32,552 nt of DNA. It comes from a virus. Below, piece by piece: positions 1 to 4,605 of this stretch; the first letter of the stretch is position 1, and the number at the start of each line of letters is the position of its first letter. The stretch covers positions 1 through 32,552 of the IMG/VR virus record IMGVR_UViG_3300035698_001351. The stretch is one strand, 5' to 3'. A program made the position numbers and the translations under genes. The notes beneath the pieces were generated by a model, which ran no database searches, had not been told where the DNA came from, and worked only from the letters and a program-made list of their open reading frames with translations.

Positions 1-183
1 ATGAAACATGTGCCTGTGTGGATGACCTAGAAACGATACATCGTCCCAGTCGCCTGTTGCTAGCTTAGGATCAGTCAACGCTGCTGGATACTTGTGAATG
101 CCTTCCTTTTGAAAGGTTACCCAAATCTGCCGCCGAGCATTTTGCATAGTTTCATCAATAATTGTACGTTCTTCTTGAATCAT
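1..183 (-). CDS. Conserved small phage protein, 3'-truncated by window edge
   Basis: The frame opens with ATG at 183 and stays open for 61 codons to the window edge, so the C-terminus is missing. The start overlaps the stop of the upstream gene (TAATG), which indicates translational coupling. The visible part begins MIQEERTIIDETMQNARR and carries the segments EGIHKYPAAL and FLGHPHRHMFH. I recall this pattern (WxxFxxEGIHxYPxAxTDP, then LGxPHRHxFH) from hypothetical proteins of T4-like cyanophages and other marine phages, where no function is known. The His-rich PHRHMFH segment could bind metal, but this is a guess. It is the last visible member of the unit led by the promoter at 898-926. Confidence 0.75.
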   Translation of the reverse strand, partial: MIQEERTIIDETMQNARRQIWVTFQKEGIHKYPAALTDPKLATGDWDDVSFLGHPHRHMFH

Positions 184-689
184 TAGATCACCTCATCGTC
201 TGTGTATTCACTCCAGGAAGTGAATACGTTTCTATCCATAAGTTTGTGCAAACTATGGCACCAAACCCCGGGATTGCTTGCTTTAAAATCTTTGTCGTCA
301 ATTTTAATCATTGTGTTGTAATTCCACTGTTTAACATAAGGAACAGTTACACGGATCTGCGGAATAAAATTATCACTCTCTATTAGGCCGCCTTCCATAA
401 ACCATTCTAAGTTAATGTTGCTCGGAATATCTAAACTACACAAGATATCTAGATCTGTGAACGCACGAATCATTAAATCCCAAGCGTCAAATTCTTCTGT
501 TGTAATAGGGTTGTAACTATGATTAGCACCAAAGAAGATATGTTTGCAATGTTCTTCTTTGTAGATTTCCATAACTTCACTGTGATTCTGAATACCGACT
601 ACAAACAAAGTTTTTAGTCCATACGCTGGTGTACGTTCAACTTCGTTACCAATAAACCACTTAACATCAGTATGCCCGTCACGAATCAT
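183..689 (-). CDS. Conserved phage protein of unknown function (168 aa)
   Basis: A complete 168-residue frame whose ATG overlaps the end of the upstream small gene. It has no signal peptide or membrane segment. Recognisable stretches are FVVGIQNHSEVM near residue 30, the motif HIFFGANHSYN near residue 50, and a C-terminal IKIDDKDFKASNPGVWCHSL with clustered acidic, His and Cys residues. I recall similar proteins in T4-like marine phages annotated only as hypothetical. The conserved H/N/D/C residues suggest a soluble enzyme or nucleotide-binding protein, which cannot be tested here. Its position near the TGT/DpdA-like gene may be coincidental, since the sigma70 promoter at 898-926 separates them. 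Confidence 0.8.
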   Translation of the reverse strand: MIRDGHTDVKWFIGNEVERTPAYGLKTLFVVGIQNHSEVMEIYKEEHCKHIFFGANHSYNPITTEEFDAWDLMIRAFTDLDILCSLDIPSNINLEWFMEGGLIESDNFIPQIRVTVPYVKQWNYNTMIKIDDKDFKASNPGVWCHSLHKLMDRNVFTSWSEYTDDEVI

Positions 690-867
690 CTGGAATTCCT
701 AATTCTGCTTTTAATTTTGTTAATTCGTCTTTGACTGCAAGTTTTTTCTTTTTAATAGTAGTTCTAGTTTCAGCAGAAGTACTATCGCTTTCAATATAAG
801 ATACCATATCGTGTAAGCGCTTATGTTCTTTAACTAAAAATTCATATCGTGTTGCCAGAGTTGCCAT
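679..867 (-). CDS. YdcH/DUF465-like small coiled-coil protein
   Basis: The start at ATG 867 (MATLATRYEFL) is preferred over the further ATG at 906, because 867 is preceded by AGGAAGG at a suitable distance and lies downstream of the promoter at 898-926, whose -10 box overlaps the longer version. The 62-residue product is almost all helix: a segment around LVKEHKRLHDMVSYIES, then KKKKLAVKDELTKLKAEL. This follows the YdcH (DUF465) pattern of an EH..L motif followed by a K-rich KLxLKDE helix, so a short antiparallel coiled coil is likely. YdcH-like proteins have no firm function. It is the first gene of its unit and overlaps the next gene by a few bases. Confidence 0.75.
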   Translation of the reverse strand: MATLATRYEFLVKEHKRLHDMVSYIESDSTSAETRTTIKKKKLAVKDELTKLKAELGIPDDS

Positions 868-897
868 TACTAAGTAATTCCTTCCTACATTACACTT

Positions 898-926
898 ATT
901 ATACACTAACTATACCATGCTGTCAA
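898..926 (-). promoter_or_regulatory. Consensus sigma70-type promoter
   Basis: On the minus strand TTGACA (926-921) is followed after exactly 17 bp by TATAAT (903-898), both perfect consensus boxes. The -35 box lies inside the last codons of the TGT/DpdA-like gene. The predicted transcript starts a few bases before the ribosome binding site of the gene at 867. This is probably an early promoter read by host polymerase. Confidence 0.9.
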
Positions 927-2433
927 GTAACTCTAGTGCATTTTGGTCAAGATCTATTTCGGTGTCTGGGCTGTCTACTTCAAACAAACTGTTAAACTGC
1001 GTTGCTGCGTTAACAATACGTTTACCAGTAAATCCTCTTGTACCTTTAACGGTATCCCAGAACTTGCTGTACTCGTTAATAATGCTCATACTTTTATCAA
1101 AGTCTTTAGCTTCAAACACCCGTTCAACTACATCACGGAACAGTATTCTGTCAAATGTTTCGTGCACCAACATAGCAGGGATAACACCAGCATCATATTC
1201 TCTGTTAGCTCGTTGCACTGATTCAATGTGCATCCATACGTTATGTCCCATAAGCAATGCATACGAAAAGCTATCCCAAGAAGTTTTGCCTTCTTTGCCA
1301 ATTTTGTTTAGCATACCAGGGGCATAATGACACACATCTCCAATAGTCATGCGCTCAGTAATTGGGCTGTTTTCAAACAGCTTGTGTACACCGTCTTTGA
1401 GCACTGCATCACGGAATGGGGTTAAGTCTCCAGCGTATTTTTTGTTATCAATAGTGGGTTCCATTTGGTAACTCCACTTGCCGCGATCTTCGATGCGGAT
1501 ACTGTTGTATACTTGTCCGTTTGCTGTTGCAAGAAACGGGCTTGCGCAGTCAAAGCTAACAGTAAAGTTTTCATTGTGGTGACGTCTAACACTGCGCTGA
1601 ATATCTGTAAGCAGCACAGCCCATTCTAGTTTACTTGTTCCCAAAAAGTGCATCCAGTCGTGCTGACCCTCCTCGAGCAAACCTTCGTGTATAAGCGTAA
1701 CCAAGCGTTTTAGTACTAAATGCACATCACACATGTTCTGTCCACCCATTGACCACCCATTGAATGGATTATCCATCTTGTCACTACAAAAGCCTTTCAT
1801 CTGATCATACCAGTGATCTGCTTCGTGGTGATTTGATCCTTGCAGCACGTTTAGTATTTTTAGATCACCGCCGCGATTGGCCATCCAAAACTCGTTGTTA
1901 TAATGTGTTGCGCTAACTGCATCATCATAACTGCGAATACCACATAGTGCACTTGCTTTTTTATCCAAGTAAGTCCATGTTGGAATATCCATAGTCATAC
2001 CGTGTGTAGCAATACCCATTTGCCAAGCAATAACTTGCTCACGCTTTTTTTCAGCTGTTTTATCTGCAGGATCATTCCATTGTGCAGGCCAAACACCTTT
2101 TGCAATCTGGAACCCACCTGAATCAGCAAGCATGATACTGTCTGCTTCCCGGGCACGTACCATTTCTTCTTTTGGCACATGCTTTGTAACATCTAGATCA
2201 GCATGCCCAGCACTGTACAAACTATACTTGTAAGGGAACAAAGCTTCTTTGCTGTTAAGCCAATTCAGACTTTCCATGTTAGGTATGCCTTTAGGCAATC
2301 TATCGCCAATTACGCTTTTTACCTGGTCTGGGTAACGTTCCTTGCCAATGTATCCAGCATAGAAGCTACTGATAGCCGGCAAGAATATTGCATAGTCTTT
2401 TTGTTTTTCAGTTAAGTTGTCTTGTTCTATCAT
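910..2433 (-). CDS. TGT/DpdA-like guanine transglycosylase (7-deazaguanine modification)
   Basis: 507 residues. TGT-family enzymes exchange guanine for a 7-deazaguanine base in tRNA; the phage and bacterial DpdA branch does this in DNA. Visible family motifs in order are LADSGGFQ with Asp104 (base-binding DSGG), MDIP with Asp149, NVLQGS near 195, GWSMGGQ near 228, and SFDCASPFLATANG with Asp295 in the place of the catalytic nucleophile (TGT: FDCxxPTRxARNG). The CxCxxC zinc cysteines of tRNA-type TGT are absent, although a MGHNVWMHIES segment resembles the TGT zinc-His helix. That loss favours a DpdA-like role over ordinary queuine insertion. No folE, queD, queE or queC is in the window. Near the C-terminus, NSLFEV (481-486) resembles the gp43 tail. 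The DNA-versus-tRNA target is inferred. Confidence 0.78.
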   Translation of the reverse strand: MIEQDNLTEKQKDYAIFLPAISSFYAGYIGKERYPDQVKSVIGDRLPKGIPNMESLNWLNSKEALFPYKYSLYSAGHADLDVTKHVPKEEMVRAREADSIMLADSGGFQIAKGVWPAQWNDPADKTAEKKREQVIAWQMGIATHGMTMDIPTWTYLDKKASALCGIRSYDDAVSATHYNNEFWMANRGGDLKILNVLQGSNHHEADHWYDQMKGFCSDKMDNPFNGWSMGGQNMCDVHLVLKRLVTLIHEGLLEEGQHDWMHFLGTSKLEWAVLLTDIQRSVRRHHNENFTVSFDCASPFLATANGQVYNSIRIEDRGKWSYQMEPTIDNKKYAGDLTPFRDAVLKDGVHKLFENSPITERMTIGDVCHYAPGMLNKIGKEGKTSWDSFSYALLMGHNVWMHIESVQRANREYDAGVIPAMLVHETFDRILFRDVVERVFEAKDFDKSMSIINEYSKFWDTVKGTRGFTGKRIVNAATQFNSLFEVDSPDTEIDLDQNALELLDSMV

Positions 2434-2906
2434 TTTAGGCCTTCAAGTTTATAACAGCTAGGGCTAATTGGTGTCCATTGATAATGATCGTTTACTACAG
2501 TATCCACCGTGACGTATTGTTGATCTTCGGTGAATATACTCCATTCAGGAAAAATATGAAAATTATGATCCTCAAGGTGCACCAACTTGTTAATACCCAT
2601 TGGACCATAATGTATACAAATATTCCAAGCTGCGCCGACTATAATCCAATTGTTTGTTTTGTGTTGGTGTTCCAAGAACTCACTAGGACTATTTAGGTAG
2701 ATAGTATCATTGTCAAACGTTTTTTCTATTATTGGATCTATTGGGCTAGACTCGGTCATACCACAACAGATTTTACTCACAATAGTTAAATTGTCTAATT
2801 CGTTGACAGCACGTTTATAGAACTGTTTGTGTATAGCCTCATCACGCATGCCATTTACGTTAGGACCCACTGTCCAGCAATCAATGAATACTACTCCCCA
2901 GGGCAT
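2430..2906 (-). CDS. Unknown phage protein, possible isochorismatase-like fold
   Basis: 158 residues, with ATG overlapping the gp45 stop (TAATG) and its end overlapping the transglycosylase start. The N-terminal strand GVVFIDCW and the later segment WIIVGAAWNICIHYGPMG resemble the two core elements of cysteine hydrolases of the isochorismatase type: an Asp at the end of strand 1, and a Gly-x-x-x-x-x-C helix start. If so, Asp9 and the Cys in WNICIH would be catalytic. The rest does not obviously match and the usual Lys is not clear, so this is a weak structural guess. Tight coupling to gp45 and the transglycosylase gene suggests shared expression with replication genes. Confidence 0.75.
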   Translation of the reverse strand: MPWGVVFIDCWTVGPNVNGMRDEAIHKQFYKRAVNELDNLTIVSKICCGMTESSPIDPIIEKTFDNDTIYLNSPSEFLEHQHKTNNWIIVGAAWNICIHYGPMGINKLVHLEDHNFHIFPEWSIFTEDQQYVTVDTVVNDHYQWTPISPSCYKLEGLK

Positions 2907-3637
2907 TACTTACTTTGCGCTGGTAGAATGTAGTTGTACACTGCAATACCACTATCAACTGTGATTTTAGCAGCGCCGAGATCTGAAATGCGCACAGTTT
3001 TATCACCAGTTAGATTCATAATTGAGATAAACTGCGTAACTGGCCAACTCCATGTACGTGCCAAAGTTCCTGCCACATCGTGCTGAAACACAAAGTCACC
3101 GGCATGTGTACTGTGATCACCAAACAAAAACTTTAAGTGCCCATCTTCGGTTTTAGTTTGAAAAGTTAACTCTTCGGCGTTTGCTTGTGCTTGCATTTTT
3201 AATCGCATGATGCTAGCAGTCGATGGTTCAAACTCAACTGCCCACGGAACGTCTTTCATCTTAGCATTTTTAAGCTTTTCGTTGACAATCTCGCTTACCA
3301 TAAAGCGATAATCGTTTTTAAAGTCGCCTGCTGTGTTTTTAAAATGCAAACCAACCGGTGCTGATTCACCGTTGCGCTCTTGGCGTTTTACAGTGATTTC
3401 GGCACCCTCTTTATATTCAGCAATGTTCAGTAGGACTTTTAGTTTTGCTAGGTTGGGCATACCAAATGTTCCCATAAATTCAGCAACTGGTTTGTGAAAC
3501 TTTGCATCTAGCACAACACTTTTGTCTTCTGCTAGTCCGATAATATTTGTTTCAGTGTCACTGCCTGTAATTTTAATAAGTTGGATACAGCCCAAATCAT
3601 GACTGTGTTCAACTAAGTCTAGTAGATAATCTCTCAT
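2906..3637 (-). CDS. 45: Sliding clamp, T4 gp45-like
   Basis: 243 residues (T4 gp45 is 228). The clamp forms a trimeric ring around DNA, tethers the polymerase, and in T4 also activates late transcription. The sequence has the gp45 pattern of alternating strands with few charged clusters: an N-terminal half ending near the KNDYRFMVSEI segment, a K/E-rich helix (VNEKLKNAKMKDVPWAVEF), and a C-terminal IAVYNYILPAQ strand typical of marine gp45 proteins. The start overlaps the previous stop (ATGA) and is preceded by CCGGAG. It lies two genes downstream of gp43, separated by the methyltransferase-like gene. The identification rests on pattern and context rather than a single diagnostic motif. Confidence 0.85.
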   Translation of the reverse strand: MRDYLLDLVEHSHDLGCIQLIKITGSDTETNIIGLAEDKSVVLDAKFHKPVAEFMGTFGMPNLAKLKVLLNIAEYKEGAEITVKRQERNGESAPVGLHFKNTAGDFKNDYRFMVSEIVNEKLKNAKMKDVPWAVEFEPSTASIMRLKMQAQANAEELTFQTKTEDGHLKFLFGDHSTHAGDFVFQHDVAGTLARTWSWPVTQFISIMNLTGDKTVRISDLGAAKITVDSGIAVYNYILPAQSK

Positions 3638-4605
3638 TTATTTTCTCCGGTGTGTTGCATTAAGTGTTTAATTGCGCCTAGGCTTTGTCCGCCTTTGATA
3701 CTACTTCTAGTCCCTGGTTTTTGTATTTCTAGCCAGCTTACGTTTTTGTCCATATCAAAACTAGCTATCATGTTAAATCCGCACTGTATGCAAGCCTCTT
3801 TTACCAAGTGCCCTGGAGTATAAGTATAGTACGAATTTCTAAAATTGTCAACTCCAATCGGATAATCACAGTTGTTATAGGTAAAAACAGCTACACCCCC
3901 TGGTTGTAAAATAGAAAAGATGTCAGCTAGATACTGTTTAATAAGCCTAAGCGGCTTAAAATTAAAGTAATCAATTGCAACAACTAAACCAAGTTGATTA
4001 ACTGGTAATGCATGCAAGATATTTTCCCCTTGTTCGTCAATAGCGTAGTATCGTATACGCCGCTGGTAATCAGGCGTCCACAATTTTTTAACTTCTTTGA
4101 ACATATCTTGATGGTCGTCAACTAGATACAGTGGATCACAACTTACTAGATAATCAGTAATATTACCTAGTTTAGGACCAAGTTGCATTGCAGAATACCG
4201 CCAGTCAACATATTCACTAATTCGTCCTATAAGAAATGTCTGAGCGTTGTCATCGCCTAGTAGATTTTTGTATCTACTTCGATCAAGTTTATAGTCAGTA
4301 TTGTCGTCAAGGCCTCTTTGATAAATCTCTTCACTTTTCTCAGTTATGAACGGAAGTTCAATGATATCAAGAGCCTGGTCTAAACACAATCTAAACTGTG
4401 CAACGTCTTGATACACCATATCTAGTTCCTTAATTATATTTTTGCTGCGATTTGCTATACTACTTTTAAGATCCTCAAAATCAATATGGTGTGTATTTAG
4501 GTTGTTGTTATGCTGTTGCAACAATTTTTCAATTGCATGTCTTGGTTCTTGCAAACTAAGATCAGCTAATAGTCTTTTATATTTTACAAGATCAACTAGG
4601 TCCAT
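3634..4605 (-). CDS. SAM-dependent methyltransferase-like protein
   Basis: 323 residues. The first 135 are helical and charged with no clear match. The remainder looks like a class I methyltransferase: LGPKLGNITDYLV with CDPLYLVDD (142-163) at the position of motif I and the acidic ribose-binding strand, LGLVVAIDYFNF near 206-217 as motif IV, and SILQPGGVAVFTYNN near 236-250 as the typical motif VI/strand 5. The glycine-rich loop is degenerate (GPKLG), which is common in phage members. The substrate is unknown and no target-recognition domain is seen. Its start overlaps the gp43 stop (TAATG) and its end overlaps the gp45 start, so it is co-translated with the replisome genes. Confidence 0.75.
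   Translation of the reverse strand: MDLVDLVKYKRLLADLSLQEPRHAIEKLLQQHNNNLNTHHIDFEDLKSSIANRSKNIIKELDMVYQDVAQFRLCLDQALDIIELPFITEKSEEIYQRGLDDNTDYKLDRSRYKNLLGDDNAQTFLIGRISEYVDWRYSAMQLGPKLGNITDYLVSCDPLYLVDDHQDMFKEVKKLWTPDYQRRIRYYAIDEQGENILHALPVNQLGLVVAIDYFNFKPLRLIKQYLADIFSILQPGGVAVFTYNNCDYPIGVDNFRNSYYTYTPGHLVKEACIQCGFNMIASFDMDKNVSWLEIQKPGTRSSIKGGQSLGAIKHLMQHTGENK

Follow-up and report, generated by a model that had tools for sequence, protein, structure and literature searches.

The gene at positions 910-2433 of the window, i.e. the whole 32,552-nt stretch of viral DNA analysed here, probably encodes a phage DNA-guanine transglycosylase of the tRNA-guanine transglycosylase (TGT) superfamily. It belongs to a zinc-less clade nearest to DpdA2 and is predicted to use a base that is made, independently of QueC, from phage-made 7-carboxy-7-deazaguanine (CDG). 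We favour DNA over tRNA as the substrate on account of the context, which comprises a DNA polymerase, a sliding clamp and a deazaguanine operon. The enzyme would remove guanine from the phage DNA near the replication fork or machinery and insert a deazaguanine, and the likely benefit would be resistance to host restriction. Such protection was shown for other 7-deazaguanines (PMC6884629).

The open reading frame on the minus strand runs from an ATG start to a stop codon, ends exactly at 910 and 2433, encodes 507 aa and overlaps its upstream neighbour, the gene of the 158-aa protein, by 4 nt. Comparison with a 91%-identical homologue gave a dN of 0.056 and a dS of 1.11 (dN/dS about 0.05), and at least 596 homologous loci or stretches were counted in IMG/VR. 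Since both results rule out a chance reading frame, the gene is real, and it is under strong purifying selection. The clade also includes members from the PA5oct/Paride-like, Vibrio 2.275.O and Phosso jumbo phages.

Table 1. Genes at the 5' end of the window, with the evidence for each.
Feature	Position	Strand	Remarks
c3, 168-aa conserved operon protein	183..689	minus	cluster 3, 68 loci; in phage ACP17 a relative (E 3e-26) directly precedes DpdA2
75-aa small protein, DUF465-like	679..906	minus	E 5.8e-6; between the dpdA-like and 168-aa genes
dpdA-like gene	910..2433	minus	507-aa zinc-less DpdA/TGT-like transglycosylase (ORF, motifs, AF2, VIA, hhalign, gene order in relatives)
158-aa protein	2430..2906	minus	close relatives only, 6 loci
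sliding-clamp-like protein, 243 aa	2906..3637	minus	phrog_12062; cluster 2, 79 loci
c8, 323-aa conserved protein	3634..4605	minus	cluster 8, 51 loci
family B DNA polymerase, 886 aa	4605..7265	minus	phrog_262, E 6.4e-191; Pfam DNA_pol_B

The protein carries the motif series ADSGGFQ (D104), GMTMD (D149), NVLQG (Q198), GWSMGG (G231) and SFDCASP (D295). D104, S105, D149, G231 and D295 are identical in 36 of 36 aligned homologues and Q198 in 35, so the base-binding DSGG and the nucleophile FD(C) that the sequence-only reading had pointed out are indeed kept. By homology to TGT, D295 would be the nucleophile, D104 would serve as acid/base, and D149, Q198 and G231 would recognise the base. Loss of the zinc site, extra length and very low identity to TGT would also suit a catalytically dead or repurposed TGT-fold protein that binds DNA. 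However, the invariance of D104, D149 and D295 and the strong purifying selection speak against it, which makes it the least probable of the explanations we weighed.

The fold was examined on an AF2 model of the protein (pLDDT 85.6, pTM 0.85). Foldseek filled the top 50 rows with TGT structures (E 1.3e-7, probability 1.00), and the best match in VIA was Thermotoga maritima TGT (2ash_A; Z 20.0, rmsd 4.5, 303 residues aligned). With the TGT (beta/alpha)8 fold and the TGT catalytic motifs, the protein is a member of the TGT superfamily. Sequence profiles from Pfam, PHROGs, PADLOC and the PDB did not recognise it as TGT, and the curated Pfam TGT model matched none of the 36 clade members at E<=1. 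An hhalign comparison with Escherichia coli TGT was very weak (E 0.0019, only 10 columns). Since the PHROGs, Pfam and PDB profile searches were empty and this alignment was weak, we used the structure and DpdA2 profiles.

When the family profile was aligned with a profile of seven DpdA2 proteins, hhalign returned a probability of 94.5 and an E-value of 7.5e-8 over 195 columns. The earlier assignment as a TGT/DpdA-like enzyme was borne out by this result together with the fold lists. Against six DpdA proteins of the 9g type the E-value was 0.11, which rules these out as the nearest relatives; any kinship with them would go no closer than the TGT superfamily. Judged from profile comparison, the clade lies nearest to the DpdA2 of Vibrio phage nt-1, yet outside DpdA2. 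In the tree, DpdA2 was monophyletic (100/100) and the 507-aa protein fell into a separate clade with phage and bacterial homologues, the two being joined by very long branches. The protein did not match phrog_10773, the DpdA2 profile found nothing in phages of the window clade, and the window-clade profile found nothing in DpdA2 phages.

The likeness to the DpdA2 of nt-1 and KVP40 (YP_008125322; PMC6884629) is nevertheless broad: both are TGT-like, phage-borne and free of CxCxxC, have deazaguanine genes adjoining and show the motif order DSGG, MxxD, HxLG, (F/Y)D. The DpdA2 phages ACP17, X1 and BUCT-ZZ01 also share an operon type with a glycosyltransferase (GT) and the small protein c4. On the other hand, DpdA2 proteins have 400-465 aa and the nucleophile loop YDSxTH, while members of the window clade have about 500 aa and FDCASPF. 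The DpdA of 9g and CAjan (queuovirinae) shares the proposed function, the absence of CxCxxC and, in 9g and Yong-L2-223, an adjoining clamp gene, but it has no usable profile similarity, only about 310 aa, and DSGAFS in place of DSGGFQ. The clade is a zinc-less transglycosylase variant of the DpdA kind in jumbo phages and should be classed neither as DpdA2 nor as tRNA-TGT.

The zinc site of canonical tRNA-TGT (PF01702, CxCxxC...H) is missing: CxCxxC occurs in 0 of 36 aligned homologues. The earlier remark on absent zinc cysteines was therefore correct, though the trait is not distinctive, because CxCxxC is also absent from the seven DpdA2 and six 9g-type DpdA proteins checked. Near the expected position of the TGT zinc ligands, conserved remnants persist, namely C368 (36/36), H397 (35/36) and N398 (36/36), which we matched to the ligands by eye. 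A bridging DpdA-like protein of 380 aa from a Bacilli MAG contig (L160) matches the profiles of both clades (E 2.1e-14 and 1.6e-7). As this protein still has CxCxxC...HN, the zinc site was possibly lost within the DpdA2/window-clade group, the tree position of its long row being unsure. On the same phage-like contig (L160:3-8586), consecutive genes encode QueD, a QueE-like protein, a phosphoribosyltransferase, FolE, QueF, the bridging protein, QueC and DNA polymerase B.

A phage TGT acting on tRNA is an unlikely source of these features. Fold (Z 20) and catalytic residues are shared with bacterial and archaeal tRNA-TGT (PF01702), and the nucleophile loop, FDCxxP followed by NG, is more TGT-like than that of DpdA2. 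What sets the protein apart from tRNA-TGT is the missing zinc site, the lack of a Pfam match and a genomic setting with DNA polymerase and clamp. Moreover, the nearest family by profile is DpdA2, there is no tRNA gene within the window, and without a canonical QueC the GT-type phages would make no preQ0 or preQ1 for tRNA.

The clamp-like family includes a gene annotated as PCNA in the PA5oct-like phage PAC2 (HMM E 5.1e-85 to that gene). For c8, a class I methyltransferase-like motif was seen by eye only, and searches of PHROGs and Pfam gave no informative family match. The AF2 model of c3 is confident (pLDDT 89.7); a fold search with it against the PDB gave nothing at E<=0.001, and c3 had no Pfam or PHROGs match. 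In 9g, Yong-L2-223 and the window clade alike, a sliding-clamp gene adjoins dpdA or lies close to it (L088:2006-3960, L146:282-1246 and window positions 910-3637). This pairing across DpdA types that have no recognisable sequence kinship may reflect replication-coupled base exchange; we found no earlier description of it in the open-access literature.

No que-pathway gene lies within the 32.5-kb window. The dpdA-like gene runs toward position 1, and the window stops 909 bp past its 3' end. The absence is due to this contig end: in a 91%-identical relative and in a 316-kb relative, FolE, QueD and QueE follow 5-12 kb downstream of the dpdA-like gene. In the first (137 kb), the dpdA-like gene lies at 75,390, and after it come genes for a glycosyltransferase, an epimerase, a DegT-type fragment, FolE (81,390), QueD (84,090) and QueE (87,252); in the second, FolE, QueD and QueE are at 35,629, 38,767 and 41,265. 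In the present phage, c4, GT, epimerase, FolE, QueD and QueE are predicted to follow outside the window, past its position 1. The statement that no queuosine-pathway genes are nearby holds for the fragment but was not borne out biologically. A solo enzyme fed with a base from the host, as the sequence-only reading had supposed, is in keeping with the window itself. The contig end and the pathway genes of the close relatives speak against this host-dependent model, which we rejected as very unlikely. In the 316-kb relative, a gene for a PnrA/Bmp-type substrate-binding protein (L009:14534-15604, E 2.5e-50) stands between FolE and an oxygenase-like open reading frame.

Among 16 long relatives and isolate phages, some of whose contigs may be fragments, FolE was found in 15 and PTPS/QueD in 12. 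QueC (PF06508) exceeded the cut-off only in Vibrio phage 2.275.O and in none of 13 long IMG/VR relatives (possibly fragments), PAC2 or Phosso. QueE was detected with a profile of phage QueE, from which two KVP40 reading frames that are not QueE were left out. Pfam Radical_SAM was dropped as a QueE marker; it picked up an excess of radical-SAM genes and did not detect the QueE of PA5oct. Four phage contigs of 89, 256, 126 and 135 kb (G010, G011, G012 and G013) each show 16-20 matches to the radical-SAM domain, a strikingly high number for a phage, with a PP-loop ATPase-like reading frame between some of them. Window-clade and some DpdA2 phages have in common a variant QueE, whose third cluster cysteine is apparently displaced from the first two by a long insertion (CNFRCMNFG ... 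GCDT; L136:3252-4211, L140:3265-4137, L001:10451-11323, L090:983-1867).

FolE and QueD lead from GTP to CPH4, which QueE turns into CDG. In the pathway summary of PMC13329287, FolE, QueD and QueE yield CDG and QueC is required for preQ0. With these three enzymes the phage would make its own base up to CDG. The inserted base is probably not preQ0, because no canonical QueC was seen in close relatives; it would be CDG or a CDG derivative, perhaps made by c4. Hutinet et al. 2019 (PMC6884629) defined DpdA2 and a group of phages that have DpdA but no pathway genes; they suggested that a phage lacking QueC alone might carry CDG, and found dPreQ0 in the DNA of phage nt-1. Vibrio phage 2.275.O pairs the window-clade enzyme with QueC and a gene resembling QueF, so different members of the clade could use different bases.

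Clustering of open reading frames over 86 loci, which are related so that the counts are not independent, revealed a recurrent order: DNA polymerase B, c8 (320 aa), sliding clamp (79 loci), dpdA-like gene, c3 (170 aa, 68), c4 (125-150 aa, 67 loci), a small protein, the GT-B-like GT (64 loci), epimerase, FolE, either QueD or a phosphoribosyltransferase, and finally QueE. The isolate phages PAC2, ACP17, X1, BUCT-ZZ01 and Phosso give independent support for this operon. A single stretch of the PAC2 genome comprises the genes for the clamp, the dpdA-like enzyme, GT, c4, an epimerase-like and a phosphoribosyltransferase-like protein, and QueE. In ACP17, X1 and BUCT-ZZ01, GT and c4 of the same families stand beside a true DpdA2, in one of them with c3 too. 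Phosso has clamp, c4, GT, FolE and QueE together and its dpdA-like gene elsewhere. The small protein c4 may be related to QueD, which an hhalign E-value of 7e-4 (controls 0.05-0.6) only suggests; Pfam and PDB gave no support for QueD/T-fold kinship.

The comparison covered ten isolate phages that carry either DpdA2 or a window-clade enzyme; they came from the existing data set and were not a random sample. The five with QueC (nt-1, KVP40, pf16, Marzo, weakly, and Vibrio 2.275.O) lack both GT and c4. The five without QueC over the cut-off (PAC2, Phosso, ACP17, BUCT-ZZ01 and X1, the last with a sub-threshold match) have both. This exclusion of 5 versus 5 gave a Fisher p of 0.008, uncorrected for kinship, and each state was seen with each DpdA type. 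In two separate DpdA lineages the GT + c4 module seems to take the place of QueC. From this we predict that the DNA contains a new 7-deazaguanine, possibly one that bears a sugar.

The glycosyltransferase of the operon may then decorate the base. We tentatively entertain that guanine is replaced by a glycosylated 7-deazaguanine, where this enzyme or DpdA2 would insert the QueC-less base, to which the GT-B-like GT would add a sugar supplied by the epimerase. If true, this would be the deazaguanine counterpart of the glucosylated hydroxymethylcytosine of T4. A serious candidate, still short of an even chance, is that the same DNA transglycosylase inserts an unsugared base of the CDG, ADG or deazaguanine type, while GT and epimerase serve other ends such as host surface polysaccharide. 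In PDB profile searches the GT matched glycosyltransferases of the group 1 family (e.g. 7ec7, WlaC), epimerase and DegT-type genes accompany it, and four further phages have c4 without GT and without a DpdA2 or window-clade match; polysaccharide GT clusters are called frequent in jumbo phages in a passage of PMC7824862. However, the GT family was confined, in the phages examined, to those with DpdA2 or the window clade, where it occurs in 5/5 without QueC and in none with QueC and adjoins dpdA or c4 each time. Between surface polysaccharide and DNA glycosylation as the task of the GT, the chances are about even.

The predicted DNA-guanine transglycosylase stands for a large clade of candidates that standard libraries (Pfam, PHROGs) missed and that are annotated as 'hypothetical protein' even in well-studied Pseudomonas aeruginosa jumbo phages. 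Further phage 7-deazaguanines were reportedly described by Cui et al. in 2023. A sentence in Iyer et al. 2021 (PMC7824862) names a deazaguanine synthesis and incorporation system in PA5oct, so this role is not new for PA5oct; in PA5oct-like phages, a member of the clade (31.5% identity over 96%) occurs along with FolE, QueD and QueE. The passages of that paper that we found define neither the clade nor its lack of zinc, nor the GT/c4 module, nor the QueC exclusion. In the open-access literature we found no report of the clade as such, of the GT/c4 module, of the QueC exclusion or of glyco-deazaguanine DNA. PA5oct, Paride and Callisto are available in culture, so nucleoside mass spectrometry could test the prediction directly.

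Bacterial homologues occur in Limnohabitans, Polynucleobacter, Sphingobium, Dankookia and MAGs, with no Que-profile match within the fetched flanks. In six loci the homologue directly follows a reading frame of 550-700 aa (L153:5712-9383, L154:6340-9344, L155:6059-9311, L157:2498-5822, L158:6208-9293 and L159:5825-9254), for which Pfam and PADLOC gave no convincing match. The C-terminus of this partner aligned weakly with the phage clamp (E 0.029, probability 1.7), which is only a hint of a clamp. Homologue and partner are possibly an undescribed modification or defence pair. In Polynucleobacter, a cytosine methyltransferase gene lies close upstream.
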